Of a stretch of 64,000 nucleotides of DNA, positions 7,341 through 28,156 are shown in pieces. The notes beneath the pieces were generated by a model. That model was not told where the DNA came from and searched no databases. It saw only the letters and a program-made list of their open reading frames with translations. This DNA comes from Leisingera sp. ANG-M1 (lineage in GTDB: Bacteria > Pseudomonadota > Alphaproteobacteria > Rhodobacterales > Rhodobacteraceae), in NCBI RefSeq assembly GCF_000813745.1, contig NZ_JWLC01000010.1, positions 64,522 to 128,521 on the forward strand. The letters are read 5' to 3'. How positions within the stretch are numbered: position 1 is the first letter of the stretch; each line of letters opens with the position of its first letter. A program made the translations under genes and the position numbers.

Positions 7341-7435
7341 AATTCTCAATTATCCAAACGATCAGATTTTTCAACCGTCACAAATTGGGACGGCAGAGAT
7401 AGTTTGATTCATCACTTGAGATTTTGGAGAGCCCC

Positions 7436-8956
7436 ATGGCCCGACGCGCCCGCGCCTCGCGCGACAGAACCACTGCCCCCGCCGGTGCCCCCGCATCCCC
7501 CTGGATCCAGCGGACACTGCCGTTCTTTGACGTGCTGGACGAGGAGAAGCTGGTCAAGATCGAAGCCCAGGTCGACTGGATCTTCGAAGAGGTCGGCATT
7601 GCCTTCCGCGACGATCCCGAAGCGCTCAGGATCTGGAAAGAGGCCGGCGCGCGGATCGAAGAGGATACCGTGCGGGCAGATGCCCAGTGGATCCGGTCGC
7701 TTTGCGCCAAGGCGCCGCGGGAGTTCACCCAGCTGGCCCGCAACCGCGCGCGCTCGGTCACCATTGGCGGCAACAACCAGGTGTTTGCACCGATCTACGG
7801 TGCGCCGTTTGTACGTGATCTGGAAGGCGGCCGCCGCTATGGCGACATGGAGAGTTTCGAGAAACTGGTGAAGCTCACCTATATGCATCCGAACCTGCAT
7901 CACGGCGGCTTTGTGATCTGCGAACCCTGCGACGTGCCGGTGAGCAAGCGCCATTTCGACATGCTTTATGCCCATATGACGCTGAGCGACAAACCGCATC
8001 TGGGCGCCATCACCGAAATGTCCCGCGCGCAGAACAGTGTCGACATGGCCGAGATCGTCTTTGGCAAGGATGTCATGGATGAGAACTGCGTGATCATGGG
8101 CAATGTGAACACCAACTCGCCGCTGCTGGTCGACAAGGTGGTGACCGAGGCGATCCGGGTCTATTCCGCACGCGGGCAGGGGATCGTCGTTGTGCCCTTC
8201 ATCCTGACTGGTGCGATGGGGCCGGTTTCCACTGCTGCATCCGTGGCGCAGGCGATGGCCGAAGCGATGATGGTCTGCGCCTTCAGCCAGCTGGTGCGCC
8301 CGGGCGCGCCGTTTGTGCTGGGAAACTTCCTCAGTTCCATGTCGCTGAAGTCCGGCGCGCCGACCTTTGGCATGCCCGAGCCGGTGGTGTCGAACTATGC
8401 AATTGGCCAGCTGGCCCGCCGTGCAGGCCTGCCGCTGCGCTGCGGTGGCTCGCTGACTGCCTCCAAGATCGAGGATGCGCAGGCGGCCTATGAAAGCGCT
8501 GACTCGATGCATTCCACAATGCTGGCCGGCGCCAACTTTGTGCTGCACGCGGCTGGCTGGATGGAAGGCGGCCTGTGCACCGGGTTCGAGAAGCTGATCA
8601 TGGATGCGGACCGTCTGGGCTCCTACCAGAAAGTGCTGAGCCAGGGCCTGGACACCAGCGACGAGGCCTTTGCCCGCGATGCCTATGGCGAGGTGGAGCC
8701 GGGCGGGCACTTCCTGGGCTCAGCCCACACCATGCGCAACTATCAGACTGCGTTCTATGAGCCGAAACTCAGCGACAGTGAGAACGTCGAAAGCTGGGAA
8801 GACGGCGGTTCCAAGGACATGCGCCGCCGCGCCTATGAACGCTGGAACGAGATGCTGAACCAGTATGAAGCGCCGCCGATGGATGACGCGGTGAAGGAAG
8901 AGCTGGCCGCCTACGTCGCCCGCCGCAAGGAAGAGATCCCGGATGCGTGGTACTGA
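7436..8956 (+). CDS. MttB-family (trimethylamine methyltransferase-like) protein, non-pyrrolysine
   Basis: 506-residue member of the trimethylamine methyltransferase (PF06253) family, recognised over its length by segments such as HPNLHHGGFVICEPCD, GAMGPVSTAASVAQ and TFGMPEPV. Pyrrolysine-containing MttB reads through an in-frame UAG; this frame has none, so it belongs with non-Pyl homologues (MtgB/MtpB type) that demethylate betaines. No corrinoid protein gene lies nearby, although characterised enzymes need one. GGAG 6 nt before ATG 7436 sets the start. The neighbouring enolase and GcvT-like flavoprotein suggest stepwise breakdown of an N-methylated compound. Substrate unknown. Confidence 0.85.
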   Translation: MARRARASRDRTTAPAGAPASPWIQRTLPFFDVLDEEKLVKIEAQVDWIFEEVGIAFRDDPEALRIWKEAGARIEEDTVRADAQWIRSLCAKAPREFTQLARNRARSVTIGGNNQVFAPIYGAPFVRDLEGGRRYGDMESFEKLVKLTYMHPNLHHGGFVICEPCDVPVSKRHFDMLYAHMTLSDKPHLGAITEMSRAQNSVDMAEIVFGKDVMDENCVIMGNVNTNSPLLVDKVVTEAIRVYSARGQGIVVVPFILTGAMGPVSTAASVAQAMAEAMMVCAFSQLVRPGAPFVLGNFLSSMSLKSGAPTFGMPEPVVSNYAIGQLARRAGLPLRCGGSLTASKIEDAQAAYESADSMHSTMLAGANFVLHAAGWMEGGLCTGFEKLIMDADRLGSYQKVLSQGLDTSDEAFARDAYGEVEPGGHFLGSAHTMRNYQTAFYEPKLSDSENVESWEDGGSKDMRRRAYERWNEMLNQYEAPPMDDAVKEELAAYVARRKEEIPDAWY

Positions 8957-9013
8957 GGCAACCATTTCTTCACGCATATGCACAGGTGATGCAGGGGACA
9001 GACAGTTGCCCCG

Positions 9014-9046
9014 GCACCCCCTGTGCACCCCCTGTACACCCCCTGT
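9014..9046. repeat. Three tandem 11-bp repeats
   Basis: Three direct copies of (G/A)CACCCCCTGT at 9014-9024, 9025-9035 and 9036-9046, plus a partial fourth (GCACC). They sit 52 bp before the enolase-superfamily start in the 141-bp gap after the MttB-like gene. Possible iterated protein-binding site, or simple slippage. Confidence 0.8.
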
Positions 9047-9097
9047 GCACCGGCAAGGCGATTTTGACGGCCTTTCCGGGCGGTGGAGGCCGCGCGT

Positions 9098-10273
9098 ATG
9101 ACCAGGCTGCGTATCACCGGGCTGCGGGCAACCCCCGTCAACATCCCGTTGGAAAAGCCAATGTGGTGGACTGGCGGACATTATCCCGGCACTTCAAAAA
9201 CCATCATTGAGGTGGAAACCGACCAGGGTCTGCTAGGCCTGGGCGAGGCGCCGTCTGTCGATGTGGTGGACAGCATCCACGCGATGGGCGAGCGGCTGAT
9301 CGGGGCCGACGCGCTGGATATCGCAGGCTGTGAAGCCCTGTGCGTGCCGCCCTGGCAGATCGTGCAGAACACCGACGACAGCTCGGTCGTGAAGGCCTTC
9401 GGTGCAATCGAAATCGCCCTGTGGGATCTGCGCGGCAAGGTGGCTGATGAGCCGCTCTACCGGCTTTTGGGCGGGGCCGTGCGCAAGGAGATCCCGTTCA
9501 CCGAATATTTCGGCTACCGCGATGGCGGCGAGATGGAGCCGCAAGCGGTGGCCGACTACTGTCTGAGGATGCAGGAAGAGCATGGATCGACCATGTTCGA
9601 GGGCAAGCTGATCCTGGGCGATCCTGAGCTGGAGATCGATACGGTCAAGGCGCTGCGCGAGACCCTGGGGCGCAAGGCGATGCTGCGGCTGGACAGCAAT
9701 ATGCAGTACTCGCTGCCCACCGCGATGCGCCTGTTCCGCGAGATCGAGCCTTATAACATCCGCAACTACGAAGACCCGGTTGCGACGTTTGAGGAAATGG
9801 CGGAGCTGCGCCGCCACTTCACCATTCCGATTTCAACCCATGTGCCGGACATCCGCCGCGCGGTGGCGCTGGGTGCGCCTGACTACATCGTCACCAATTT
9901 CGCGGTGCTGGGCGGGATTGCCCGGGCTGTGCGCTTCATCGGCGCCTGCGAGGCGATGGGCGTCGGCTTCTGGTGCTACTCGGGCGATGCGGGCATTGCC
10001 ACAGCGGGCTATCTGCATATGTCGGCTGCGATGCCCTGGATCACCGAGCCAAGCCAGTCGCTGTTCCGCTGGCAGATCGGCGATGTGATCGAAGGCGGCC
10101 CGTTCCGCCAGAAAAACAACGTGATTGCCGTGCCCGAAGGGCCGGGCCTGGGGGTGACCCTGGACCGCGGCGCCCTGCAGCACTGGCACAGCCATCTGGT
10201 CGAGAACGGACCGCTCGACCACTTTTATGACCCTGCAAAACCCGGCCGTTTCCGCCGTTTGCCCCTGAACTGA
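9098..10273 (+). CDS. Enolase-superfamily enzyme (mandelate racemase/glucarate dehydratase-like)
   Basis: 391-residue enolase-superfamily protein with an N-terminal capping domain and a C-terminal barrel. Metal-ligand motifs are seen: LRLDSN (first Asp) and NYEDPV (Glu), followed by an ISTHVPD segment. The second barrel strand has a single lysine (EGKLIL) rather than the classical KxK. The reaction should begin with proton abstraction alpha to a carboxylate (racemisation, epimerisation or dehydration); the substrate cannot be named. Enolase-superfamily epimerases for betaines such as hydroxyproline betaine are known, and the demethylase context makes that kind of role plausible. GGAGG at 9085-9089 selects ATG 9098 over GTG 9083. 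Confidence 0.85.
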   Translation: MTRLRITGLRATPVNIPLEKPMWWTGGHYPGTSKTIIEVETDQGLLGLGEAPSVDVVDSIHAMGERLIGADALDIAGCEALCVPPWQIVQNTDDSSVVKAFGAIEIALWDLRGKVADEPLYRLLGGAVRKEIPFTEYFGYRDGGEMEPQAVADYCLRMQEEHGSTMFEGKLILGDPELEIDTVKALRETLGRKAMLRLDSNMQYSLPTAMRLFREIEPYNIRNYEDPVATFEEMAELRRHFTIPISTHVPDIRRAVALGAPDYIVTNFAVLGGIARAVRFIGACEAMGVGFWCYSGDAGIATAGYLHMSAAMPWITEPSQSLFRWQIGDVIEGGPFRQKNNVIAVPEGPGLGVTLDRGALQHWHSHLVENGPLDHFYDPAKPGRFRRLPLN

Positions 10274-10284
10274 GGACAAAACCC

Positions 10285-12759
10285 ATGTCAGACAATTTTG
10301 CCCAATCGACGCTCAACATCCACAAGGAGGAGAGCACAGGCGACAAGAAGCTGCCGAGCCACGCCAAGGCGGTGATCATCGGCGGCGGCGTTGTTGGCTG
10401 CTCGATCCTGTTCCACCTGGCCAAATTCGGCTGGAAGGACGTGGTGCTGCTGGAGCGTGACGAGCTGACCTCCGGCTCCTCCTGGCACGCTGCGGGGCAG
10501 ATCCATACGATTTCGTCCGATCCCAACATCTCGCGCCTGCAGAGCTATACCATCGATCTGTACAAGGAGATCGAGGAAACATCCGGCCACAGCGTTGGCC
10601 TGCACATCACCGGCGGTTTCTACTTGGCCTCGAACAAGACCTGGTACGATTACCTGAAGCGGGAACGCTCCAAGGCGCGCTACATGGGCCTGAACCAAGA
10701 ATTCATCAGCCCCAAGGAGGTGGCCGAGCGCCATCCGCTGATTGACCCGAAACATTACCACGCGGCGCTGTGGGATGATCAGGACGGCGATCTGGACCCA
10801 TCGGGCGCGACCTATGCATTCGCGAAATCCGCCCGGGTGCATGGCGCGCAGTATTTCACCCATACTCCGGTGACCGGTACCACCCAGCGCCCGGATGGCA
10901 GCTGGGATGTGGTGACCCCGCGGGGCGTCATCAATGCCGAGCATATCGTGAACTGCGGCGGCCTGTGGGCACGTGAGGTTGGCCATATGCAGGGCATCAA
11001 CCTGCCGGTGCAGCCGATGGAGCACCACTATCTGATCACCGACAAGATCGACGCGGTGGCCAACCACCCGACCCGCCTGCCGGCCGGTATCGACTATGAG
11101 GCGAACATCTACTTCCGGCAGGAACGTCAGGGCATGCTGCTGGGTACCTATGAGCCGAAAGGTACACCCTGGAAAGTGGACGGCACCCCCTGGGACTTTG
11201 GCCACGAGCTTCTGCAGCCTGATTTGGACCGGATTGCCGACCGTCTGGAAATGTCGTTTGAACGTATCCCGGCGATCGGCGAGGCGGGCATCAAGGATAT
11301 GATCAACGGGCCGTTCACCTTCGGTCCCGATGGCAACCCGATGATCGGCCCGGTTCCGGGCATGAAGAACTACTGGTGCGCTGTGGGCGTGATGGCGGGC
11401 TTCTGCCAGGGCGGCGGTGTCGGCCTGACCATGGCCGAGTGGATGATCGACGGTGAGCCTTCGATCGACGTCTGGGCGATGGATGTGGCGCGGTTCGGCG
11501 ACTTTGCGACCCCCGACTGGGGCACCGTGAAGTCGACCGAGAATTACGAGCGCCGCTTTGTGATGACCTTCCCGAACGAGACGCTGCCGAAGGGCCGGAT
11601 GCAGAAAACCACCGCGCTTTATGACCGGCTGGTCGCCAAGGGCGCGCGGATGGGGCAGGGCTTTGGCCTGGAGAACGCGCTGTGGTTTGCCGATGGGCCG
11701 GAGGATGCGCATGAAGAGCCTACTTTCCAGCGCAACCGCTCGCACGACTATGTGGCGCGCGAGGTCAAAGCCGTGCGCGAGGCCGTGGGCGGCATTGAAG
11801 TTGCCAACTTTGCCAAGCATGAGTTCAAGGGCGCAGGCGCACGGGCCTATCTGGACCGGGTGCTGGCGGGCTATGTGCCCAAACCCGGCCGCCTGACCCT
11901 GACACCGATGCTGACGCCCAAGGGCAAGCTCTATGGCGATCTGACCGTGGCCTGCCTGGCTGAGGATCATTTCATGCTGTTCGGCTCCGGCACCATGCAG
12001 GAGGCGCACCGCCGCTGGTTTGAAAAGGACCTGCCCGCAGACGTGGCCTACCAGAACGTCTCGGACGATTGGCATGGTATTGCGCTTTCGGGTCCGAAAT
12101 CGCGGGAGCTGCTGCAGCGGATCACCCGCGAGGATGTCTCGGGCGAGGCGTTCAAGTTCCGCGACCTGCGCCAGACCTTTGTTGGCGGCGTGCCGGTGAT
12201 CCTGAACCGGATCAGCTTCTCGGGCGAGCTGGGCTATGAGATCTACTGCAAGCCGCAGTACCTGCTGCGCCTGGCGGAAGCGATCGAAGATGCCGGGGGT
12301 GATCTGGGCTACCGTTGGTATGGCGCGCGGGCGCTGATGTCGATGCGCCTGGAGAAGGGCTGGGGTGTGTGGACCCTGGATTTCCGTCCTGACTTTGACG
12401 CGGTGGAAAGCGGCATGGATGTCTTCATCAATTGGAAGAAGGATTTTGTTGGCAAGGAGGCCGCACTTGCTGCCAAGGAAGCCGGTCCGAGCCGCAAGCT
12501 GGTCACCATGACCATCGACGTGGACGGCATCGATGTCTCCAACGACGAGGCGATCCTGAAGGATGGCGAGGCAGTGGGCTACATCTCCTCCGGCGGTTAT
12601 GCGCATCACGCGCAGACCTCGATGGCGATGGGCTATGTTTCGGCGGAGCACACCGGTGCGGGCACCAAGCTGCAGGTCGAGATCCTGGGCGAGATGTATG
12701 ACGCTGAAGTGCTGGGCGCGCCGATCTATGACGCCAACGGCGCCAACATGCGTGCCTGA
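10285..12759 (+). CDS. FAD-dependent demethylating dehydrogenase with GcvT-like domain (dimethylglycine/sarcosine dehydrogenase type)
   Basis: 824 residues. The N-terminal half is a DAO-type flavoprotein with Rossmann motif GGGVVG (residues 33-38), Glu57 for FAD ribose, and SSWHAAGQ with His68 at the position that binds FAD covalently in dimethylglycine/sarcosine dehydrogenases. The C-terminal half is an aminomethyltransferase (GcvT) fold that in relatives takes the methyl carbon onto tetrahydrofolate. Expected reaction: oxidative N-demethylation giving 5,10-methylene-THF. It starts 11 bp after the enolase-like gene and ends 22 bp before the regulator, so it is in one operon. The exact N-methyl substrate is not determined. 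Confidence 0.9.
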   Translation: MSDNFAQSTLNIHKEESTGDKKLPSHAKAVIIGGGVVGCSILFHLAKFGWKDVVLLERDELTSGSSWHAAGQIHTISSDPNISRLQSYTIDLYKEIEETSGHSVGLHITGGFYLASNKTWYDYLKRERSKARYMGLNQEFISPKEVAERHPLIDPKHYHAALWDDQDGDLDPSGATYAFAKSARVHGAQYFTHTPVTGTTQRPDGSWDVVTPRGVINAEHIVNCGGLWAREVGHMQGINLPVQPMEHHYLITDKIDAVANHPTRLPAGIDYEANIYFRQERQGMLLGTYEPKGTPWKVDGTPWDFGHELLQPDLDRIADRLEMSFERIPAIGEAGIKDMINGPFTFGPDGNPMIGPVPGMKNYWCAVGVMAGFCQGGGVGLTMAEWMIDGEPSIDVWAMDVARFGDFATPDWGTVKSTENYERRFVMTFPNETLPKGRMQKTTALYDRLVAKGARMGQGFGLENALWFADGPEDAHEEPTFQRNRSHDYVAREVKAVREAVGGIEVANFAKHEFKGAGARAYLDRVLAGYVPKPGRLTLTPMLTPKGKLYGDLTVACLAEDHFMLFGSGTMQEAHRRWFEKDLPADVAYQNVSDDWHGIALSGPKSRELLQRITREDVSGEAFKFRDLRQTFVGGVPVILNRISFSGELGYEIYCKPQYLLRLAEAIEDAGGDLGYRWYGARALMSMRLEKGWGVWTLDFRPDFDAVESGMDVFINWKKDFVGKEAALAAKEAGPSRKLVTMTIDVDGIDVSNDEAILKDGEAVGYISSGGYAHHAQTSMAMGYVSAEHTGAGTKLQVEILGEMYDAEVLGAPIYDANGANMRA

Positions 12760-12781
12760 TCCGAGCAGGGGAGCGGAAACC

Positions 12782-13765
12782 ATGACCAAACCCATGCGGA
12801 AGCTCCCCGAAGCGGCCGAGGCCGTGCCGGCCTGCCGCTGCGTCTTCCTGCTGCTGCCCACCTTCTCGCCGCTGGACCTGTCCAGCGCGGTAGCAGCGCT
12901 GGAGGCTGCGAACAGCCATGACGGGACCGCGCGCTATGACTGGCGCGTGGTCAGTGAGGACGGCTTATCGGTCACTGCGCCTAACGGGCTGAGCGTGGCA
13001 GTGGACGGCGGCTTGCCGGATCTGACCCGTGGCGACATGGTCTTTGTCTGCGGCGGCCAGGGGTCCGAGCCGGGCGTCTCACTGAAGGTGCTGGGCTGGC
13101 TGCGCAAGGCGCAGCGCATGGGGGTGACCCTCGGTGCGCTGGGCGGCGGGGTGCTGGCGCTGGCGCGCTCTGGCCTGCTGGCCGGGCGCCAGGTGTCGGC
13201 CCATTGGGCGCTGCGGGCAATCCTCTCCGAAGCCCATCCGGACGTGGAGGTTAGAAGCTCGCTGTTCACCATGGAAAGCAAGCTGATCACCTGCGCCGGC
13301 GGCACCGCCACCGTCGACATGATGCTGAACCTGATCTCGGATCACTGCGGCCCGGAGGTGGCAACCGGGGCTGCAGATCTGATGGTCTGCTCCTCCGCCC
13401 GCAAGGGCAGTCAGGACCAGACCATTTCCGAGTACGGCCGCGCAGGCGTGCGGCACGAAAAGCTTGCCGCTGCGCTCAGCCTGATGCGCAGCAACCTGGA
13501 GGAGCCTTTGACCCCGGGCGGCATCGCCGATCTGGTCGGCCTTTCGGTGCGCCAGCTTGAACGGCTGTTCTCGAAATACCTGCAGACCACGCCCAAGGTC
13601 TATTACACAAGGCTGCGGCTGGACTATGCGCGCAGCCTGCTCTTGCAGACCAACATGCGGATCATCGACGTGGCGCTGGCGTCCGGCTTCAACAGCCAGA
13701 CCCATTTCGCCAAGGTCTACCGCCGCTATTTCGGCAAGTCGCCGCATCAGGAACGGCCGTTCTGA
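12782..13765 (+). CDS. GlxA-type AraC regulator (GATase1-like plus AraC HTH)
   Basis: 327 residues: an N-terminal DJ-1/PfpI (GATase1-like) sensor domain, about residues 15-190, and a C-terminal AraC/XylS double helix-turn-helix, residues 225-325 (IADLVGLSVRQLERLF and IDVALASGFNSQTHFAKVYR). This architecture is shared by GbdR and CdhR, activators of betaine and carnitine catabolism in Pseudomonas, which fits the upstream demethylation genes. A GGGGAG run lies just before ATG 12782. It is the last gene of the operon and is followed by a strong hairpin. Confidence 0.9.
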   Translation: MTKPMRKLPEAAEAVPACRCVFLLLPTFSPLDLSSAVAALEAANSHDGTARYDWRVVSEDGLSVTAPNGLSVAVDGGLPDLTRGDMVFVCGGQGSEPGVSLKVLGWLRKAQRMGVTLGALGGGVLALARSGLLAGRQVSAHWALRAILSEAHPDVEVRSSLFTMESKLITCAGGTATVDMMLNLISDHCGPEVATGAADLMVCSSARKGSQDQTISEYGRAGVRHEKLAAALSLMRSNLEEPLTPGGIADLVGLSVRQLERLFSKYLQTTPKVYYTRLRLDYARSLLLQTNMRIIDVALASGFNSQTHFAKVYRRYFGKSPHQERPF

Positions 13766-13817: not shown

Positions 13818-14291
13818 TCAGAGGCCCAGGTCGCTGAGGCCCGGGTGGTCTGCCGGGCGGGGGCCTTGCGGCCAGTGGAACAGGCGGTCCGCCTCGGCGA
13901 TCTTCAGATCGTTGATCGAGGCAAACCGGTGCGCCATGCGGCCGTCTACGGCAAATTCCCAGTTCTCATTGCCATAGGACCGGTACCACTGGCCGGAGGC
14001 ATCGTGCCACTCGTAGGCATAACGGACGGCAATGCGGTTGCCATCAAAGGCCCAAAGCTCCTTGATCAGCCGGTATTCCAGCTCACGGTCCCATTTGCCA
14101 GCCAGGAAGGCCTGCACCGCATCGCGGCCCTGGGGAAAATCGGTGCGGTTCCGCCATTTGGTGTCCGGAGTATAGGCCAGTGCGACGGCCTCGGGGTTTC
14201 GGCTGTTCCATCCATCCTCAGCGGCGCGGACTTTGGCAATTGCAGTTTCGCGGGTGAATGGCGGCAGCGGCGGGCGGGGGGCTTCTGTCAT
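13818..14291 (-). CDS. DUF1348 / NTF2-like (SnoaL-fold) protein
   Basis: 157-residue single-domain protein of the DUF1348 family in the NTF2-like superfamily, recognised by [32 protein letters not shown] and [21 protein letters not shown] segments. The family has no established reaction; members are often linked to TetR regulators. Here a TetR gene diverges and the two share paired operators. Start at ATG 14291; the upstream in-frame codons overlap the operator. Cytoplasmic, no signal. Confidence 0.85.
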
Positions 14292-15304: not shown

Positions 15305-16759
15305 CTAACTGCGCAAGCGAATTGCTACATTTTTTGTTTGAACATAGTTCAATAACGCCTCTCGGCCCTTTTCACGTCCATAGCCGGACTGGCCGTAGCC
15401 GCCAAACGGGGTTTCAACACCGCCTGCGTACCACTCGTTCACATAGACTTGTCCGGCGCGCAATTGGCGGGCTGCCTGCGTGGCGCGGTCAAGGTCGCGG
15501 GTGAAGACGCCGCTGGCCAGACCGAAGGGGGTACTGTTGGCGATTTCGACCGCCTCGGCGGCGGTGCGGAATTTCAGAACCGACAGCACCGGGCCGAACA
15601 CTTCTTCGCGGGCGATGGACATGCCGGGGGTGACATCGCACAGGAGCGTCGGCTCCATGAAGGCACCCGGCAGATTGAGCTTGCGGCCGCCGGCGGCGAG
15701 GCGGGCGCCTTCTTCTGTTGCCTGTGCCACCATGCGCGCCGCCCGGTCGCGCTGAGACTCCGATACCAGAGCCCCCATGTTCGGACCAAATGCTGCTCGG
15801 TCGATTCCGGGGCCGACGGACAGCGACCGGGCCAGAACCGAAATGCGCTCCACCAATTCATCATGGCGGCTTTCATGCACGATGACACGGCTCATGGCCG
15901 AGCAGACTTGGCCTGCGTTGAAATAGATCCCCCAGCGCACGTCGCTCTCAAACGCCTCTAGGTCGGCATCTTCATGCACGATGGCGGCGGATTTTCCGCC
16001 GAGTTCCAGCACGCAGGGCACCACGTTCTGCGCCGCCGCCGTTGCAATTGCGATGCCGGTGGCGACCGAGCCGGTAAAGACCAGCTGGTTGATCTGCGGG
16101 TGCGAAGACAGGGCCGCTCCGGCCTGATGCCCCAACCCGCACAGTATGTTCACGGCACCTGCCGGTAGCCCTGCGGCTTCGGCTGCATGGGCAAACCAAG
16201 CATTTACCAGCGGTGTCAGCTCTGGAGTTTTGATCACAGCTGCGTTGCCGGTGGCCAGCGCCGCCGACAGTGAGCGGGCGGTCATTTCCAGCGGGTAGTT
16301 CCAGGGGATGATCTGGGCCGAGACGCCATAGGGCTCATGGGTGGTGAAGTCGAAATAGCCAGCCCCCAGCGGGATTGAGCGGCCTTCGACCGTTTCTGCC
16401 TGGTTGCCATAGTATTCGAAATAGCGTGCAGCACCTTCGACTTCCATCCGGGCTTCCCACAGCGGCTTGCCCTGCTCAAGCGTCAGCACCGGGGCAATGT
16501 CATCGATGTGATCCAGCAGATAGCGGCCCATCGCTCTGACCATGCGTCCGCGCTCAACCGGCCGCAGATCGCTCAGCGCTCCGGAAAGATGCACCCGCCG
16601 CGCAGCCTGTACGGCCCGGTCCACGTCTGCGGCATCCGCCAGTGCATGTTCTGCCAGCTTCTGGCCGGTGCCTGGGTTGATCACATCGATCCGGCCAGCG
16701 CCGCCGTCTGCCCAGGCGCCGTCGATATAGTTCTGCCAAAAGGGCTTTATGTCCCGCAC
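15305..16759 (-). CDS. NAD(P)-dependent aldehyde dehydrogenase, aminoaldehyde/betaine-aldehyde type
   Basis: 484-residue ALDH oxidising an aldehyde to an acid with NAD(P). Glu252 (LELGGKS) and nucleophile Cys286 (AGQVCSA) are present, with the IIPWNYPL cofactor motif near residue 150. The segment around the nucleophile (GQVCSAMSRVIVHES) resembles betaine-aldehyde and aminoaldehyde dehydrogenases of the ALDH9/10 type more than generic succinate-semialdehyde enzymes; this is a judgement by eye. It is the last gene of the hydroxylase-aldolase-PrpD operon, 63 bp after PrpD, and is proposed to oxidise the aldehyde released by the aldolase. Confidence 0.9.
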   Translation of the reverse strand: MRDIKPFWQNYIDGAWADGGAGRIDVINPGTGQKLAEHALADAADVDRAVQAARRVHLSGALSDLRPVERGRMVRAMGRYLLDHIDDIAPVLTLEQGKPLWEARMEVEGAARYFEYYGNQAETVEGRSIPLGAGYFDFTTHEPYGVSAQIIPWNYPLEMTARSLSAALATGNAAVIKTPELTPLVNAWFAHAAEAAGLPAGAVNILCGLGHQAGAALSSHPQINQLVFTGSVATGIAIATAAAQNVVPCVLELGGKSAAIVHEDADLEAFESDVRWGIYFNAGQVCSAMSRVIVHESRHDELVERISVLARSLSVGPGIDRAAFGPNMGALVSESQRDRAARMVAQATEEGARLAAGGRKLNLPGAFMEPTLLCDVTPGMSIAREEVFGPVLSVLKFRTAAEAVEIANSTPFGLASGVFTRDLDRATQAARQLRAGQVYVNEWYAGGVETPFGGYGQSGYGREKGREALLNYVQTKNVAIRLRS

Positions 16760-16822
16760 AGGTCTTCTCCCCGATGCTGCCGGATGGGTTGCGTTGGATC
16801 GCAGTGCTAAGTTGCCGGGTGC

Positions 16823-18139
16823 TCAGCTTCGGTAGCTGAGCTGTGCGAACATTCCGCTCAGGTCCCGGCTCTCCGGCAGCGCTTCGATGCTTGCCAGGAG
16901 AGTTCGAGCCTTGTCCTGCCCCATGACAGGTTCCGTCAGGCGCAGGAATTTTTCGCGGATCACGCTGTGGCTCACCCGGTTTTCGGGGTCGCCCTGGGCT
17001 TCGGTGACGTCAGACGTCAGGGTGCGCCCGTCGGCCAGCGAGATATGCGCCTGGGCAAAGCGGCGCGCCGGGAAGGCCTCGTTAAAGGCATCGGTTTCTT
17101 CGATCGCGACCATACGGGTCAGGCGCAGAATGTCCGGGTTGCTGAGGCCGGGTTCCATCACTTCACTCACACCGATCGTGCCAGCCACAAGCGCGGCGCC
17201 GACCGAGAAGGGCAGAGAATACTGGGCCTGTTCGGTGGTGGTAGGGATGGCGTTCAGGCGCTTGGCTTCGTGAAAGCTTTCGATCCGGATGGCGGTGATG
17301 TCTGCAGCGGCGAAGTCATGCGCGCGGCGCAGCGCCATTACCGCTTCGGCAGCGGGCTGGGCCCAGCGGCAGACGGGATAGAGCTTGATGTACTGGTCCT
17401 GGATGTACCAGTTTTGCCCCAGGTCGCCCCAGATATCTGCGAGGTCTTCGGCCTCCATCGAAATTGCAGGCGCTCCGGTGAACCCGTCACGGGCAAGATA
17501 GGCGGCGGAAACACCGGCCATCGAGCCCCAGCCGGAACCGTCCCGGACCATGGTCGGCGCGTCGATGCAGCGCATCATCTGGCTGCGTGGCCCGTTGTAT
17601 TCCGCAATTCCCAGCGCTTCGCGGGTGCGGGCGGCGTCCAGGCCCAGGACGCGGGCGCCCATCGCTGCAGCTGCCAGCGCCACCCAAGCGCCAGAGGTGT
17701 GGTAATCGCAGACACTGCGGTGCAGCGCGATGCCGGCGCGGGTGCCGATTTCATAGCCGATGGTGACGAGGGTCAGGAATTCCTCCGCGTCGCTCAAACC
17801 TTCGGCCTGGGCCAGCGCAATGGCGGCGGGAATGACACCGCAGCCGACATGGCCCTTGGTCAGCTTGTGCCCGTCATGGGCATCCAGCGAGTCGATGGTT
17901 GTGGCGTTGGCCAGCGCCGCACCGGCGGCGCTGGCGGTCTTGCCTTCCGGCCAGATCTGCGCGGCCTGGCCGCCGAACATGGTTTGCGCATGGCCGCCGA
18001 TGATCCGCGACATATCCGTCTGCACCGCGCTCATGGCGACGCCAAGGGTGTCCACCAGGGCGCGCACGGCGTCCTGCACGGCTGCTTGTGGCAGGTCCTC
18101 GTAGCGGGTGTTCAGGATGAAACTGATGGCATCGGTCAT
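16823..18139 (-). CDS. MmgE/PrpD-family protein (copy 1)
   Basis: 438-residue MmgE/PrpD protein, a family that includes 2-methylcitrate dehydratase and cis-aconitate decarboxylase. Typical features are DSLDAHDGHKLTKGH near residue 85, CDYHTSGAW and PRSQMMRCID. It is closely similar to the second PrpD gene at 24503. The likely role is (de)hydration or related chemistry on a small carboxylate, but the substrate is unknown. It follows threonine aldolase by 31 bp in the same operon. Start ATG 18139 (MTDAISF); a longer upstream reading runs through the aldolase gene and is rejected. Confidence 0.87.
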   Translation of the reverse strand: MTDAISFILNTRYEDLPQAAVQDAVRALVDTLGVAMSAVQTDMSRIIGGHAQTMFGGQAAQIWPEGKTASAAGAALANATTIDSLDAHDGHKLTKGHVGCGVIPAAIALAQAEGLSDAEEFLTLVTIGYEIGTRAGIALHRSVCDYHTSGAWVALAAAAMGARVLGLDAARTREALGIAEYNGPRSQMMRCIDAPTMVRDGSGWGSMAGVSAAYLARDGFTGAPAISMEAEDLADIWGDLGQNWYIQDQYIKLYPVCRWAQPAAEAVMALRRAHDFAAADITAIRIESFHEAKRLNAIPTTTEQAQYSLPFSVGAALVAGTIGVSEVMEPGLSNPDILRLTRMVAIEETDAFNEAFPARRFAQAHISLADGRTLTSDVTEAQGDPENRVSHSVIREKFLRLTEPVMGQDKARTLLASIEALPESRDLSGMFAQLSYRS

Positions 18140-18170
18140 GCGGGTATCCTTGGTAGCAGGCAGGGCCGGG

Positions 18171-19220
18171 TTAGCTGGAGGTGAAAGACCGGAAGGCGGC
18201 GATGGCAGAGTCCAAAGCGCCGTCGTCCACATCCCGGTGCAGAACCATCCGGATCGCCGGCGACTGGCCGCCGATCTTGATACCTGCCTGTGCCATGTGG
18301 CCAATGAGGCGGGCGTGGTCTCCGGCCTTGGGCGTGAGGAACACCATGTTGGTCTGCGATGAAACCTCGCCGATCCCGGTCGCGCGCAGCGCTTCAGCCA
18401 GGCGGGCCGCCCGGGCGTGATCACTGACCAGTTCCGGCACGTGATGCTCCAGCGCATAGAGGCCGGCCGCGGCCAGCACGCCGGACTGCCGCATCGCGCC
18501 GCCGAGGATTTTTCGGTTGCGCCGGATCTGGCCCATCAGGGCATCGGGGCCAACCAGAACCGACCCTGCAGGCGTGCCCAGCCCTTTGGAGAGGCAGACG
18601 GAGATGGTGTCGAAAGGTGCGGCAAAGGTGGCGGCGTCGCAGCCCAAGGCAGTGATTGCATTGAACAGACGGGCGCCGTCCAGATGCACAGCCAGCCCGG
18701 CGTCACGTGCCACATGCACGCCTGCCTCGATCCGCTTCAGCGGCACAACCCGGCCGCCGACGCTGTTTTCAAGGCTCAAGAGGCGGCTGCGGGCGTAATG
18801 GGGATCGTCCATCTTGATCGCAGCGGCGATCCGGTCAGGATCCAGGCCGCCGTCCTCAGACGTTGTAACCGGCACCATCGAGACACCTGCCAGAACCGAC
18901 GCCCCTGCCGCCTCGTCGCAGTAAAGGTGATAGCGGTCGCCGCTGATCATCTCATCGCCGCGGCCGCAATGGGCCATAACGGCAGCCAGGTTGCTTTGCG
19001 TGCCGGTGGGGAAGAACACCGCAGCGTCCTTGCCCAGACGTGCCGCAAGCTCCTGTTCCAGGCGGGTGACCGTCGGATCTTCACCATAGACATCATCCCC
19101 CAGCGGCGCGGCCATCATCGCTTCGCGCATGCCGGCGCTGGGTTTGGTCAGCGTGTCGCTGCGAAGATCGCAGATGCAGTTGGTGGCTGCATCTGCGGCG
19201 GTGTAACCATAGAGGCTCAT
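18171..19220 (-). CDS. ltaE: Low-specificity threonine aldolase-type PLP enzyme
   Basis: 349-residue fold-type I PLP enzyme of the beta-eliminating lyase/threonine aldolase family, which cleaves beta-hydroxy-alpha-amino acids to glycine and an aldehyde. HLDGAR (Asp181, Arg184) and the PLP lysine Lys212 in CLSKGLG are intact, as are DLRSDTLTKP at the start and GDDVYGEDP near residue 41. The start overlaps the stop of the upstream 2OG-hydroxylase gene by 4 bp (ATGA), so the two products are made together. That coupling argues that its physiological substrate is the hydroxylase product, not simply threonine (inference). Confidence 0.92.
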   Translation of the reverse strand: MSLYGYTAADAATNCICDLRSDTLTKPSAGMREAMMAAPLGDDVYGEDPTVTRLEQELAARLGKDAAVFFPTGTQSNLAAVMAHCGRGDEMISGDRYHLYCDEAAGASVLAGVSMVPVTTSEDGGLDPDRIAAAIKMDDPHYARSRLLSLENSVGGRVVPLKRIEAGVHVARDAGLAVHLDGARLFNAITALGCDAATFAAPFDTISVCLSKGLGTPAGSVLVGPDALMGQIRRNRKILGGAMRQSGVLAAAGLYALEHHVPELVSDHARAARLAEALRATGIGEVSSQTNMVFLTPKAGDHARLIGHMAQAGIKIGGQSPAIRMVLHRDVDDGALDSAIAAFRSFTSS

Positions 19221-19894
19221 TCGGTGACCTGATCGTAAGCCAGCGCTGCAACAATATGCACACGGTGCTTTTCGCCGCCATTCAGGGCGGTGTGATAGGC
19301 GCGGGTGTCGGTGAAATAGACCGAACCGTCGGCGGGCAGGTGGGTCACGTGGTGATTCACGATGAACAGCGAGCCGGGGTTCGAGATCAGCGGGATGTGC
19401 AGGCGCGGTTCCGGGTCGCGGTGCCAGGAGTTGCAGTTATACAGCCCCTTGGACAGGATCCGGGTGCGGCCGATCGGGAAGCGTTTGCTCAGCTCCTCGT
19501 GCACATATTCGAAATAGGTGCCCTTGAACTTCGGGTTGAACTCGGAAAAGTCGATTTCCGGCACCAGATCCTCGCGCGGTTCTTCGACATAACGCTCATC
19601 GGCGCGCAGCCAGTAGCGGCCCGACAGGTCGTTGGTGGTCCATTCCGTCTGGCCCGGGCGCTGGGTCAGCGGCAGCGCGGCAAAGCCCTGGTCCTGCATT
19701 CCGCCCATGAAGGCTTCGCGTTTCAGGCACTCTTCCAGAGCTTCCTGCAGCTTTTCGATGTCGAATTTCAGATCCAGCCGGGCAATGCCGGGGCCGGGCA
19801 CGAACTCCGCAACCGATGTGTAATCGGGCATTTCGGACATGGCATTCTGGATCAGCTCGACGTCACTGTCCTGGATCTGTGGCATGAAGGTCAT
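19217..19894 (-). CDS. Fe(II)/2-oxoglutarate-dependent hydroxylase, Asp/Asn beta-hydroxylase fold
   Basis: 225 residues. The C-terminal half matches the aspartyl/asparaginyl beta-hydroxylase fold: metal motif His158-x-Asp160 (WHRD), RLHIPL at 164-169, distal His201 and Arg211 placed to bind 2-oxoglutarate. Members hydroxylate protein residues or free amino acids (for example proline cis-4-hydroxylases). ATG 19894 is chosen for GGGAG 8 nt upstream. It is first in the operon and overlaps the aldolase start, suggesting it beta-hydroxylates an amino acid for aldol cleavage. Substrate not determined; no signal peptide, so cytoplasmic. Confidence 0.8.
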   Translation of the reverse strand: MTFMPQIQDSDVELIQNAMSEMPDYTSVAEFVPGPGIARLDLKFDIEKLQEALEECLKREAFMGGMQDQGFAALPLTQRPGQTEWTTNDLSGRYWLRADERYVEEPREDLVPEIDFSEFNPKFKGTYFEYVHEELSKRFPIGRTRILSKGLYNCNSWHRDPEPRLHIPLISNPGSLFIVNHHVTHLPADGSVYFTDTRAYHTALNGGEKHRVHIVAALAYDQVTE

Positions 19895-20278: not shown

Positions 20279-21175
20279 TTAGCCCGGCTGGCTGGCCGCC
20301 TGCATCTGCCCCAGGAACCAGTTCCGCATTCGCTCGACCCGGACTACGCCGACTTTGGCTTCCGGTGTCAGCAAATAGTATGCGCTGTCGGCGGCCTTAA
20401 AGGGGTGGACCTGCACCAGGCTGCCATTCTGCAGTTCCTTGCGGATCAGGATCTCTGGGATAATGGCGATGCCATGGCCGTTCTTCGTTGCATCGATCAG
20501 CATTTCGAACTGGTTGAACATCGGGCCGATGATTTTGCGCGGCAGCTTGACGCCCTGCAGCTTGAACCAGATCTGCCAGGACAGCGGCCGGGTGGAATGC
20601 TGCAGGATCCGGTGCTCCAGCAGGGCCTCGGGATTCTCCAGCGGTTCGGGGAACTGGTCCGGCGCACCCGCCACCACCAGAACATCGCTCATCAGCCGGT
20701 CGGCACGGTAGCCCGGCCAGGATACATCGCCCTGTGCAAAGGCCAGATCCACCAGGCTGGGGTCGATCTCGGAGTTCTTCAGATAGGTGACAAGGTTCAG
20801 CGTATGGCGGATCTTTTCCGCCTCCGGCCCCATGATCAGCGGCATCAGCCAGCGGCTGCCCAGGGTCGGGTAGACGCCGATGTTCAGACTGCCCTCGGCA
20901 CTGTCATGCGATTTGGTTTTCAGAATGGTCAGCTCCAACTCCTCCAGGAGCGGTGACAGTTCAGCCAGCAGGTTGCGGCCGGCTGCAGTCAGCTTGACCC
21001 GTTGCTTGGAGCGGGTGAACAGCGACTGGCCGACAAAAGCCTCCAGGATCTGGATCTGACGGCTGACCGCACTTTGGGTCACGTTCATTTCCTCAGCGGC
21101 GCGTGCAAAGCCTTCGGTTTTTGCCGCCGCTTCGAAGCAGAGCATGGAAGTGATTGAGGGGATGCTTCGTCGCAT
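20279..21175 (-). CDS. LysR-family regulator
   Basis: 298-residue LysR regulator with N-terminal HTH (GFARAAEEMNVTQSAVSRQI) and effector domain, GcvA-like in layout. It lies upstream of and co-directional with the hydroxylase-aldolase-PrpD-ALDH operon, and diverges from the DUF1127 gene and the amino-acid importer. It is therefore the likely regulator of both halves of the block. The 170-bp upstream region holds a TTCAG..TTTTTCG / CGAAAAACTGAA dyad around 21252-21290. Confidence 0.88.
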   Translation of the reverse strand: MRRSIPSITSMLCFEAAAKTEGFARAAEEMNVTQSAVSRQIQILEAFVGQSLFTRSKQRVKLTAAGRNLLAELSPLLEELELTILKTKSHDSAEGSLNIGVYPTLGSRWLMPLIMGPEAEKIRHTLNLVTYLKNSEIDPSLVDLAFAQGDVSWPGYRADRLMSDVLVVAGAPDQFPEPLENPEALLEHRILQHSTRPLSWQIWFKLQGVKLPRKIIGPMFNQFEMLIDATKNGHGIAIIPEILIRKELQNGSLVQVHPFKAADSAYYLLTPEAKVGVVRVERMRNWFLGQMQAASQPG

Positions 21176-23655: not shown

Positions 23656-24396
23656 ATGAACAAACCGGTCATCGAAATGCGCGGCGTGAACAAGTGGTAT
23701 GGCACCTATCACGCACTGCGGAATGTCAACTTCACTGTCAGCAAGGGTGACAAGATCGTGATCTGCGGGCCTTCGGGCTCCGGCAAATCCACCTTGATCC
23801 GCACCCTGAACTGGCTTGAGTCGCATCAGGAAGGCGAGATCACCGTCGACGGCATCCGCCTGCATGAAAAGATGAAGGACATCGACAAGGTGCGGATGGA
23901 AGTGGGCATGGTGTTCCAGCACTTCAACCTGTTCCCGCATCTGTCGGTGCTGGAAAATCTGATGGCGGCGCCCATGTGGGTGCGCGGCGTGGCCGAGGCG
24001 GAGGCGCGGGAGACTGCGATGAAATACCTCGAACGCGTCCGCATTCCCGAGCAGGCGGACAAGTTTCCCGGCCAGCTGTCTGGCGGCCAGCAGCAGCGGG
24101 TTGCGATTGCGCGCAGCTTGTGCATGAACCCCAAGGTGATGCTGTTCGACGAGCCGACCTCGGCGCTGGACCCGGAGATGGTTTCCGAGGTGCTGGATAC
24201 CATGGTGGAGCTGGCGCAGGACGGCATGACCATGGTCTGTGTGACGCACGAGATGGGCTTTGCTAAGGCGGTGGCGGACCGGGTGATCTTCATGGATGCC
24301 GGCGAGATCATCGAGGAGAACGACCCGGTACAGTTCTTCGAGAACCCGCAAAGCGAGCGGACCCGGACCTTCCTGAGCCAGATCCTGCAGCATTGA
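23656..24396 (+). CDS. Polar amino-acid ABC transporter ATPase
   Basis: 246-residue GlnQ/HisP-type ATPase. Walker A (GPSGSGKST), signature [15 protein letters not shown], Walker B (VMLFDEP) and switch His in VTHEMGF are intact. ATG 23656 is 13 bp after the permease stop with a GGGAG site. It completes a binding protein-permease-ATPase importer; the second MmgE/PrpD gene follows. Confidence 0.93.
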
Positions 24397-24502
24397 CGCG
24401 CAGCTTCGGATACGGCTGAACTTGCCGAAGCCCGATGCGGCAGGTTCAGCGGTTATCGATTCCGTCTGGCCCCGGATGCAGCAAACGCGCGGAGGAGGCG
24501 CA

Positions 24503-25852
24503 GTGCAGATGGCCCTGAAATTCGACCGGTTTGCAGAACAGCTGGCTTATGAAGATCTGCCGGAACAAGTTCTGTGGACGCTGCGGCGGTCCTTTCTGGA
24601 CACCATGGGTGTGGCGGCTGTTGGTGCAACTACGGAACTCTCGGGCATTGCCCGCCGGGTGGCGCCGATGATTTTTGGCGCAGGCAGTGCCGGCGCCGCG
24701 CAGATGCTGATGGACGGGTGCACGGTCAGCCCGGCCGGCGCCGCAATGGCCGGAGCCTTCACCATCGACTCGATTGACGCCCATGACGGGACCACGCCCT
24801 GCAAGGGCCATGCGGGTTCGGCGATCTTTCCGGCGATGATTGCCATGGCTCAGGCCGGCAGGCAGGAAATGGATGGCAAGCGGTTTGCCGAAATTCTGGC
24901 CGCGGCCTATGAAATCTCTTACCGCGCCGGGCTGGTGCAGCATGCAACTTGCGCCGATTACCACACCTCCGGCGCCTGGACTGCGGTTGGAGTTGCAGCC
25001 GCCGGCGCCAAGCTGCTGGGCGGCTCTGCGGAACAGATCCGCCAGGCTGCGGGCATCGGCGAATACCACGGACCGCGCAGCCAGATGATGCGCTGCATCG
25101 ATCACCCGTCGATGGTGCGCGACGGAGTTGGCTGGGGGGCGCCCTCTGGCGTCACGGCTGCCTATCTGGCGATGGAGGGCTTCACCGGCGCTCCGGCCCT
25201 CACCTGCGAGGGTGAGGAGGGCGCGGACTTCTGGGCGGATCTTGGCAGCGGCTGGCGGCTGGTGGACCACACCCATTACAAGGCCTACCCCTGCTGCCGC
25301 TGGGCGCATCCCTCGCTGGATGCGGTGCAAGAGATAATGCAGTCTCATGGCCTCAGCCACGACCAGGTCGAGGGCGTGGAAATCCGCACCTTCCACTACG
25401 CCACCCGGCTTGCCGGGCACGAGCCGCAGAACCAGGATGAATTTGCTTATGCCATCGCTTTCCCGGTGGCCGCGATGATCGTGCGCGGCCAGGTGGGGGT
25501 CGAGGAGCTGAGCGAAGCGGCACTGCGGGATCCGGACATCCTGCGCGTCAGCCGTGCCGTCACGCTGATCGACGACGCCGAGATGACACGGATCAGCACG
25601 GACAAGCGCTGGGCACAGGTCACTCTGGTGCTGAAAGACGGCCGCCGGATCGAGGACGTGCCGCGCACCCCGCGCGGTGACGCTGACCTGCCGCTGAGCG
25701 ATGCGGAGATCGTGCAGAAGTTCCATCTGCTGGCTGCGCCGGTGCTGGGGCAGGCTCGGGCTGAAGCGCTTGCAGAGCTGGCCTTGCAGTTCGACAGCCT
25801 GGACACGACCCGCTTCCGGCAGCTCCTCGACCTGTGCTGCCAGCCGGTCTAA
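24503..25852 (+). CDS. MmgE/PrpD-family protein (copy 2)
   Basis: 449-residue MmgE/PrpD protein, clearly paralogous to the one at 16823-18139 (shared CADYHTSGAW, GPRSQMMRCID, MVRDGxGWG and FTGAPA segments). Activity within the family is dehydration or decarboxylation of small tricarboxylates and relatives; substrate unknown. It follows the importer genes in the same direction by about 100 bp. AGGAGG at 24493-24498 fits GTG 24503 at close spacing or ATG 24509 at 10 nt, so the start is uncertain by two codons. Confidence 0.87.
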   Translation: MQMALKFDRFAEQLAYEDLPEQVLWTLRRSFLDTMGVAAVGATTELSGIARRVAPMIFGAGSAGAAQMLMDGCTVSPAGAAMAGAFTIDSIDAHDGTTPCKGHAGSAIFPAMIAMAQAGRQEMDGKRFAEILAAAYEISYRAGLVQHATCADYHTSGAWTAVGVAAAGAKLLGGSAEQIRQAAGIGEYHGPRSQMMRCIDHPSMVRDGVGWGAPSGVTAAYLAMEGFTGAPALTCEGEEGADFWADLGSGWRLVDHTHYKAYPCCRWAHPSLDAVQEIMQSHGLSHDQVEGVEIRTFHYATRLAGHEPQNQDEFAYAIAFPVAAMIVRGQVGVEELSEAALRDPDILRVSRAVTLIDDAEMTRISTDKRWAQVTLVLKDGRRIEDVPRTPRGDADLPLSDAEIVQKFHLLAAPVLGQARAEALAELALQFDSLDTTRFRQLLDLCCQPV

Positions 25853-25894: not shown

Positions 25895-26797
25895 ATGCCA
25901 CGCAAAATTCCGCCCTTTGCCGCCATCCGTGCCTTTGAAGCTGTCGCCAGGCTGGGCCGCAATGTGGATGCGGCGCAGGAGCTGAATATCACCGCCTCGG
26001 CGATCAGCCATCAGGTGCGGGCACTCGAGGCCTTTGTTGGCACGCCGCTGTTCCAGCGCGGCAGCGGCCAGCAGTCCGAGCTGACCGAGGAGGGCCGCGC
26101 GCTTCTGGCGCCGGTAACGCAGGCGCTTGATGCTATGGACTCGGCCTTTGCCCGCTACACCGGAAAAACGCTGGAGCAGATGATTTCGGTGCATATGTAT
26201 CAATCGCTGGCAAACATGTGGCTGATCCCCAAGCTTCCAAAGCTGCGCGAAGCCCTGCCAGGGTTGACCCTCCGGATCGTCACGATGCCCGAAGAGATCA
26301 ATCTGAGCGGCAGTGATGTAGACCACGCGATTGTCTTTTCTAACAAGCCGCCGCAGGAGACCCGTTGTGTCAAATTGTTTGACGAACTGATCCAGCCGGT
26401 GTGCTCGCCGGACTATCTGAAGTCCCGCACCGGGCCTTTGCGGCCCGAGGATATGGTGACCGAGCCGCTGATCCGCAGTCAGCACCATGCAAACGAATGG
26501 GGGCGCTGGTTCAACGCTGCAGGCCTGGGTGATCAGCCTTGGAAGCCGGTTGCGGAAATGGATAACCGCTCCAACGCGCTGCAGGCTGCGGCAAGCGGTC
26601 TTGGGTGGGCAATGGACCGGCGGCCGTTTGGTGAAGAGCTGCGCCGCAGCGGTCAGCTGGTGGCTCCGATCGACCTCGCAGTACAGACCGGGTATGCATA
26701 CTACTTGCTAACTTCCTACCGTGCAGAAGGTTCACCTGCAGCAACCCAGTTCCGCAATTGGCTGATACGCAATTGCACTCAGCAATTTGCGGTTTGA
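25895..26797 (+). CDS. LysR-family regulator
   Basis: 300-residue LysR regulator with HTH (NVDAAQELNITASAISHQV) and a GcvA-like effector domain. It lies 42 bp after the second PrpD gene and is probably co-transcribed with it. It is the last gene before tRNA-Met and thus the right-most gene of the proposed island. Together with the LysR gene at 20279 it gives the block two regulators of its own. Confidence 0.88.
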   Translation: MPRKIPPFAAIRAFEAVARLGRNVDAAQELNITASAISHQVRALEAFVGTPLFQRGSGQQSELTEEGRALLAPVTQALDAMDSAFARYTGKTLEQMISVHMYQSLANMWLIPKLPKLREALPGLTLRIVTMPEEINLSGSDVDHAIVFSNKPPQETRCVKLFDELIQPVCSPDYLKSRTGPLRPEDMVTEPLIRSQHHANEWGRWFNAAGLGDQPWKPVAEMDNRSNALQAAASGLGWAMDRRPFGEELRRSGQLVAPIDLAVQTGYAYYLLTSYRAEGSPAATQFRNWLIRNCTQQFAV

Positions 26798-28072: not shown

Positions 28073-28156
28073 AGGGATAAACATAGTTCGCCCGGACGGG
28101 TTAGACCAGTCCAGGCGAAGGGCAGTGTTACCGCTGCCTACCACTTTTGCGCTGGT

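Follow-up and report, generated by a model that had tools for sequence, protein, structure and literature searches.

A predicted glycine-releasing hydroxylase-aldolase module in Leisingera sp. ANG-M1

In eukaryotes, trimethyllysine is converted to gamma-butyrobetaine by trimethyllysine hydroxylase (TMLH), hydroxytrimethyllysine aldolase and trimethylaminobutyraldehyde dehydrogenase, and in the guanitoxin pathway of cyanobacteria the hydroxylase GntD precedes GntG. GntG is the retro-aldol enzyme of guanitoxin biosynthesis (PMC10367076, excerpt), and the caprazamycin pathway combines Cpz10 with a threonine-using transaldolase that works in the bond-forming direction (PMC9814697, excerpt). According to PMC8085414 (excerpt), carnitine biosynthesis has not been observed in prokaryotes, and LtaE is a possible hydroxytrimethyllysine aldolase in Escherichia coli. 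Here, we describe an operon of four genes encoding a hydroxylase, an aldolase, an MmgE/PrpD family protein and an aldehyde dehydrogenase (ALDH) from the alphaproteobacterium Leisingera sp. ANG-M1 (genome of 5.37 Mb in 91 contigs); the window analysed comprises 64,000 nucleotides of contig NZ_JWLC01000010.1.

All four genes lie on the reverse strand and encode an Fe(II)/2-oxoglutarate (2OG) hydroxylase of the Cpz10/AspH fold (19217..19894, 225 aa), a GntG-family pyridoxal-phosphate-dependent L-threonine-type aldolase (18171..19220, 349 aa), MmgE/PrpD family protein 1, a proposed epimerase or dehydratase (16823..18145, 440 aa), and the ALDH (15305..16759, 484 aa). The first two overlap by 4 bp (shared ATGA) and the next gaps are 25 and 63 bp; the genes, their placement and the overlap are as an earlier sequence-only reading of this stretch had given them. 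The best explanation of the whole, which we consider probable, is a catabolic amino-acid module, its likely chemistry being beta-hydroxylation, glycine-releasing retro-aldol cleavage and aldehyde oxidation. An adjacent ATP-binding cassette (ABC) transporter would import an L-alpha-amino acid charged at its distal end, to which the hydroxylase, judged from its fold, residues and partner, would add a beta-carbon hydroxyl group using O2 and 2-oxoglutarate. Given its repeated pairing with the hydroxylase, the aldolase would very probably cut the C2-C3 bond to yield glycine and an aldehyde shortened by two carbons, which the ALDH would oxidise to a carboxylate, as the operon and a second, unlinked aldolase pairing suggest. 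The MmgE/PrpD protein may be an epimerase acting on the amino acid itself, making the stereoisomer accepted by both hydroxylase and aldolase, a role hinted at by its relative IDS-epimerase and by a second copy in the transporter operon.

Pairing of hydroxylase and aldolase

The hydroxylase has an AspH-type fold with an Fe/2OG site (HxD...H, Arg) and is related to Cpz10 in sequence and fold, which supports the earlier view of an AspH-type oxygenase rather than one of TMLH or gamma-butyrobetaine hydroxylase (BBOX) type. Against PF05118, the Asp/Asn beta-hydroxylase family, it scores 19.9 bits, under the gathering score of 22.6; searching the whole genome with this model gave no match, and the controls likewise gave none. 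The Cpz10 main text lists mutants D72, R102 and R121 (PMC9814697, excerpt). Among 7633 candidates scored, 7466 are relatives of the hydroxylase at E <= 0.001, the closest named ones (92-95% identity) belonging to Leisingera, Ruegeria and Phaeobacter, and the source-given names of the best 120 are nearly all 'hypothetical protein' or generic hydroxylase. Plasmid records hold one distant relative (29%, Streptomyces), and a scan of viral contigs, which detects close relatives only, found none.

Neighbourhoods were compared at 80 hydroxylase loci, the best 80 of 103 relatives from a scan of genome contigs, mostly from Rhodobacterales, Rhizobiales and Kiloniella-like bacteria and many with marine names; unless stated otherwise, counts refer to the 78 loci that cover 1.1 kb or more on the downstream side of the hydroxylase. 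The window aldolase, with PDB matches 3wlx and 4lnj, passes the models for GntG (NF041359, 395.9 bits against a cut-off of 230) and for low-specificity L-threonine aldolase (NF007825, 362.4 against 312). A same-strand aldolase stands directly downstream of the hydroxylase in 42/78 loci, many of them close kin that are each counted singly, and stop/start overlap geometry recurs in 27. Fourteen loci (L014-L025, L027, L028) have one neighbouring gene family in common, most with dnaX nearby. The tree of 72 aldolases, in which three rows (L112-L114) duplicate loci already present, places the hydroxylase-linked enzymes in separate well-supported clades and forces at least four changes of the 'linked' label; those of L071 and L082 group with aldolases that are unlinked elsewhere, apart from the other linked ones. 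That different aldolases have repeatedly been recruited to one and the same hydroxylase is our strongest argument for predicting a beta-hydroxy amino acid as its product.

Co-occurrence points the same way. Among 149 Rhodobacteraceae genomes, counting that of the window, the hydroxylase is present in 4 and an aldolase scoring 200 bits or more in 18; all 4 are among those 18, with the two genes at most 2.4 kb apart (P = 1.6e-4; 3/3 against 17/148 with the window's own genome set aside, P = 1.3e-3). The hydroxylase-aldolase pair is a genuine module, and adjacency, recruitment and co-occurrence together support the sequence of beta-hydroxylation and glycine-releasing retro-aldol cleavage proposed earlier. 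They also render it improbable that the two are loose neighbours, the hydroxylase acting on a peptide or small molecule unlinked to an ordinary threonine aldolase. That alternative draws on the same-family aldolases that stand alone in other Rhodobacteraceae; in ten such genomes no other hydroxylase was seen alongside by eye, no family search of the neighbours having been made. It also draws on hydroxylase genomes that lack such an aldolase, considered next.

Several observations weigh against the module as proposed. Neither an aldolase nor an MmgE/PrpD gene was detected in 20/78 loci, some of them on short contigs, and 11/78 have an MmgE/PrpD gene and no adjacent aldolase. From the 36 loci without an adjacent aldolase, 24 genomes were searched: 16 encode an aldolase scoring 200 bits or more at another site (3 in pieces), one has a fragment and seven have only weak matches or none, so that the hydroxylase may possibly serve something else too. 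The ALDH subfamily lies near the hydroxylase at a single locus (L011), the only recurrence of the four-gene set; in the synteny survey called for by the earlier reading, that set was thus mostly not kept (1/78), whereas the hydroxylase-aldolase core was (42/78). A search of 60 other family genomes found two with a close ALDH relative (E <= 1e-180, 78-80% identity), neither of which has the hydroxylase, and genome G008 has hydroxylase and aldolase without the ALDH; the ALDH is therefore not a fixed partner of the hydroxylase.

The host genome carries a second hydroxylase-aldolase locus (L094, G000:C56:211500-228500), where the hydroxylase frame, in pieces near 8142-8740, is interrupted by several stops and the aldolase (7093-8142) is intact and 61% identical. 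A dnaX-like gene, named by eye, lies close to this pair, as in Leisingera. Sulfatase-family genes occur near the hydroxylase in five loci (L042, L044, L055, L057 and L081; the copy matched to Pfam was that of L081).

The aldehyde dehydrogenase and the substrate

The window ALDH (PF00171) passes none of the 25 ALDH models listed. The best-scoring one is that for betaine-aldehyde dehydrogenase (BADH), under its cut-off; the betaine-aldehyde and trimethylaminobutyraldehyde dehydrogenase models failed (TIGR01804, 416 against 668.6 bits; NF009725, 400.4 against 593; NF010000, 389 against 615), as did that for succinate-semialdehyde dehydrogenase (SSADH; TIGR01780, 346.4 against 646.35). In an alignment with E. 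coli GabD, BetB and PatD, Arg162 occupies the position of Arg164 in GabD and of a Trp in both BetB and PatD; among the 120 closest ALDH homologues the motif could be located in 119, each of which has Arg there. That Trp is part of the aromatic box in betaine-aldehyde dehydrogenases, and we take Arg162 and Glu158, four residues before it, to lie in the stretch lining the ALDH substrate tunnel. The ligands of the substrate carboxylate are Arg213, Arg334 and Ser498 in human SSADH and Arg164, Arg282 and Ser445 in E. coli (PMC11353897, PMC10599462, PMC2823781; excerpts); in the window ALDH the first is kept (Arg162), the second is Phe280 and the third aligns with Gly. As far as such residues can tell, the signature disfavours a trimethylammonio-aldehyde and favours an aldehyde that is anionic or zwitterionic.

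These residues bear directly on a route for amino- or diamino-dicarboxylates, in which diaminopimelate would give glycine and glutamate semialdehyde, or 2-aminoadipate glycine and succinic semialdehyde, and the MmgE/PrpD protein would interconvert stereoisomers. We regard this route as possible but on the unlikely side. The equivalence of Arg162 with GabD Arg164 and human SSADH Arg213 fits it, as do importers of the SBP_bac_3 or SBP_bac_5 (oligopeptide) type at the loci, of a kind that murein peptides would require, and the kinship of the MmgE/PrpD proteins with IDS-epimerase (PDB entry 2hp3), which presumably acts on a dicarboxylic imino acid. The two other GabD ligands are nevertheless lost (Arg282 to Phe280, Ser445 to Gly), Glu158 may neutralise Arg162, and the methylated-amine genes in the neighbourhood are left unexplained.

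Those genes (7439..13765, forward strand) encode MttB-like, enolase-superfamily, dimethylglycine dehydrogenase (DMGDH)/GcvT-like and GbdR-like proteins, and possibly use the product of the module. MttB relatives demethylate glycine betaine, gamma-butyrobetaine (MtyB), carnitine and other compounds (PMC12478193, excerpt). MttB genes are present at 10 of the 80 hydroxylase loci, where 2.6 would be expected (P = 2.2e-4). For 48 loci the expectation was set by the MttB count of the respective genome, and for the remaining 32 by the mean of those 48; restricted to the 48, the figures are 10 against 1.8, a flattering comparison since all positives are among them. With kin collapsed, the enrichment drops to P = 0.0035 (Kiloniella counted once, 8/78) and, on further collapsing, to P = 0.035 (6/76). 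The smaller enrichment over all 80 loci slightly lowered our estimates for the onium and trimethyllysine readings. Orthologues of the window MttB (E <= 1e-230) occur in 11/48 hydroxylase genomes against 8/148 family genomes, the window's own set aside (P = 0.001), in groups that differ in kinship and have at least two genomes in common; 10 of the 11 lie outside the examined stretches around the hydroxylase. This context plausibly keeps a methylated onium amino acid in play, and an onium or zwitterionic amino acid is our first, tentative guess at the substrate. The host genome (G000) has 18 full-length MttB-family genes and the pieces of a broken one; the 48 other hydroxylase genomes have 0-16 matches.

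Trimethyllysine, known from brown algae as laminine, is the substrate that the sequence-only reading had raised as a question. It would be converted via 3-hydroxytrimethyllysine to glycine and 4-trimethylaminobutyraldehyde and then to gamma-butyrobetaine, which the MttB/DMGDH-type neighbours would demethylate. The MttB enrichment and the orthologue counts argue for this route, as do MtyB among the MttB relatives, the possible side activity of LtaE on hydroxytrimethyllysine (PMC8085414, excerpt) and the BADH model at the top of the ALDH scores, even if under cut-off. Set against them are Arg162 in the place of the BetB/PatD Trp, the remoteness of 10 of the 11 MttB orthologues from the hydroxylase, the fall in enrichment when related loci are collapsed and an MmgE/PrpD enzyme with no evident role. 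In addition, a whole-genome search with the trimethyllysine dioxygenase model TIGR02410 gave nothing over the cut-off (best 192.1 against 268.3, the TmpA gene), and the sole passing gamma-butyrobetaine hydroxylase is likewise TmpA. Trimethyllysine is thus a possible substrate that the ALDH does not favour, and we judge it improbable.

The gamma-butyrobetaine hydroxylase match on G000:C77 was rejected as evidence of a carnitine route, since it is TmpA (596.6 bits against 400) followed by TmpB (364 against 300). This pair for trimethylaminoethylphosphonate breakdown lies at L091 (G000:C77:356000-374500, 8154-9887), and its TmpA scores above the cut-off of the gamma-butyrobetaine dioxygenase model TIGR02409 as well (426.4 against 414.75), so that annotation by TIGR02409 alone would misname it. 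Two weaker gamma-butyrobetaine hydroxylase matches (256.6 and 199 bits) are under the cut-off, and the second scores 208.5 against 400 for TmpA.

That the ALDH takes the step after the aldolase gains support from L146 and L147, in the alphaproteobacterial genomes of L073 and L057. At both, an aldolase unlinked to the hydroxylase lies near an ALDH of the same subfamily (69% and 66% identity to the window enzyme); an HcaD-like ferredoxin reductase (model-named in L146 only) separates the two, and the aldolase is flanked on its far side by a DmdA-like protein. The latter raises the case of a sulfonium amino acid (S-methylmethionine), which would yield glycine and dimethylsulfonioacetaldehyde, then dimethylsulfonioacetate, with folate- or corrinoid-dependent demethylation to follow. 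The DmdA-like gene comes after the aldolase, on whose opposite side the ALDH lies two genes off, and oxygenation of L-methionine is a side activity of Cpz10 (PMC9814697, excerpt); yet these are two related loci only, with DmdA-like scores of 367 and 379 bits under a cut-off of 410, and beside the window operon no DmdA-like gene was seen except for the GcvT-type domain of the DMGDH-like protein. We hold this route to be very improbable.

An ALDH paralogue of 79% identity is present in the window's own genome. It and the two relatives of 78-80% identity in other family genomes each adjoin a Rieske oxygenase gene and have a DMGDH-like gene nearby; the L141 Rieske protein scores 160 against 670 bits for GbcA, and the other two are alike by eye. 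The paralogue lies in a dense methylated-amine cluster (L140, G000:C27:18000-37413) of MttB-like, aminotransferase-like, enolase-superfamily, DMGDH-like and Rieske-like genes, several of them named by eye. The cluster also encodes a TmpA/BBOX-like oxygenase under cut-offs and a small protein; the relative of the latter at L141 resembles carboxymuconolactone decarboxylase.

MmgE/PrpD proteins, transporter and further neighbours

Both MmgE/PrpD proteins of the window belong to this superfamily with scores over the cut-offs (PF03972 and PF19305: 151.4 and 112.4 bits for protein 1, 125.7 and 117.2 for protein 2), and they share 43.9% identity over 408 residues. The models for 2-methylcitrate dehydratase PrpD failed (31.7 against 950 bits and 18.5 against 575). 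In the PDB, both are about equally distant from cis-aconitate decarboxylases and IDS-epimerase (49-69 bits), the matches of protein 1 being Bacillus IRG1 and IDS-epimerase at 62-66 bits, so that the comparison shows no preference between epimerase and decarboxylase. Because one copy is in the transporter operon and the other in the enzyme operon, we favour the reading that they act on the imported amino acid, as epimerases. A relative of protein 1 lies at most 1.6 kb downstream of the hydroxylase in 24/78 loci, 13 with an aldolase and 11 without, and at L013 hydroxylase and aldolase are followed consecutively by both MmgE/PrpD genes. The loci with MmgE/PrpD directly after the hydroxylase and no aldolase (L049-L051, L053, L064, L076-L080 and L083) are mostly beside an oligopeptide-type ABC transporter.

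Upstream of the hydroxylase, at 384 bp and on the same strand, is the gene for a LysR-type regulator (20279..21175; PF00126, PF03466). Relatives of it adjoin the hydroxylase in many loci, and are divergent in Leisingera. The ABC transporter operon is divergent from the LysR gene and lies on the forward strand; it encodes an amino-acid substrate-binding protein (SBP_bac_3, PF00497; 21778..22614), a permease (PF00528; 22671..23642) and an ATPase assigned from its open reading frame and sequence (23656..24396), and ends in MmgE/PrpD family protein 2 (24422..25852), after which comes a GcvA-like LysR regulator (25895..26797; NF008352, 225.2 bits, under its cut-off of 288). The nearest solved relatives of the substrate-binding protein are ancestral reconstructions and binders of glutamine, cystine and nopaline, with none clearly ahead. 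Its relatives occur near the hydroxylase in L011, L012, L032, L033 and the gammaproteobacterial L081 (61% identity), and those of the ATPase (80-91% identity) in L011, L012, L030, L032 and L033; transporter genes thus stay with the hydroxylase as far out as the gammaproteobacterium.

Farther out, paaZ (27272-30190; TIGR02278, 989.9 against 562.8 bits) adjoins the module region, beside a regulator that we take to be PaaX-like from its resemblance. The interval separating the ALDH from the methylated-amine genes contains the gene for a DUF1348 SnoaL-like protein (13818-14288, 216.9 bits).

Comparison with known systems

The module likely follows a known logic, that of trimethyllysine and guanitoxin, in a new form and a catabolic setting. 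No bacterial gene set of this kind, with this transporter and these MmgE/PrpD partners, came up among the listed titles and abstract openings of open-licence PMC papers, which is weak evidence of absence. A more daring proposal, which we consider rather doubtful, is a widespread undescribed bacterial catabolic route in which an amino acid, supplied by MmgE/PrpD epimerases, is beta-hydroxylated and then shortened by glycine in a retro-aldol cleavage; in its boldest form, the substrate would be trimethyllysine or another onium compound, an AspH-fold oxygenase would have reached early carnitine chemistry independently and MttB-type demethylases would use the product. Defining the substrate would identify an as yet unrecognised component of marine dissolved organic nitrogen, give this MmgE/PrpD subgroup its first role and supply a compact hydroxylase and aldolase set for amino-acid shortening.

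The eukaryotic trimethyllysine route has the same reaction order as that predicted for the module, which differs from it in its Cpz10/AspH oxygenase, its MmgE/PrpD protein, its ALDH signature of non-betaine-aldehyde type and its bacterial importer and regulator. The logic is not confined to eukaryotes, since GntG performs a retro-aldol reaction in guanitoxin biosynthesis and the module aldolase passes the GntG model. The guanitoxin cluster serves the biosynthesis of a natural product, whereas the module, with its transporter, LysR regulator and ALDH, points to catabolism. In the synthesis of the antibiotic caprazamycin, the C-C bond is built before Cpz10 acts; the module aldolase would instead break the bond after hydroxylation. 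TmpA/TmpB from the same genome presumably also combine Fe/2OG hydroxylation with subsequent oxidative cleavage of a hydroxylated methylated amine, but with a BBOX-type oxygenase, a second oxygenase (TmpB) and unrelated genes. IDS-epimerase, finally, is a solved relative of both MmgE/PrpD proteins at 62-67 bits, to which the cis-aconitate decarboxylases are equally close.

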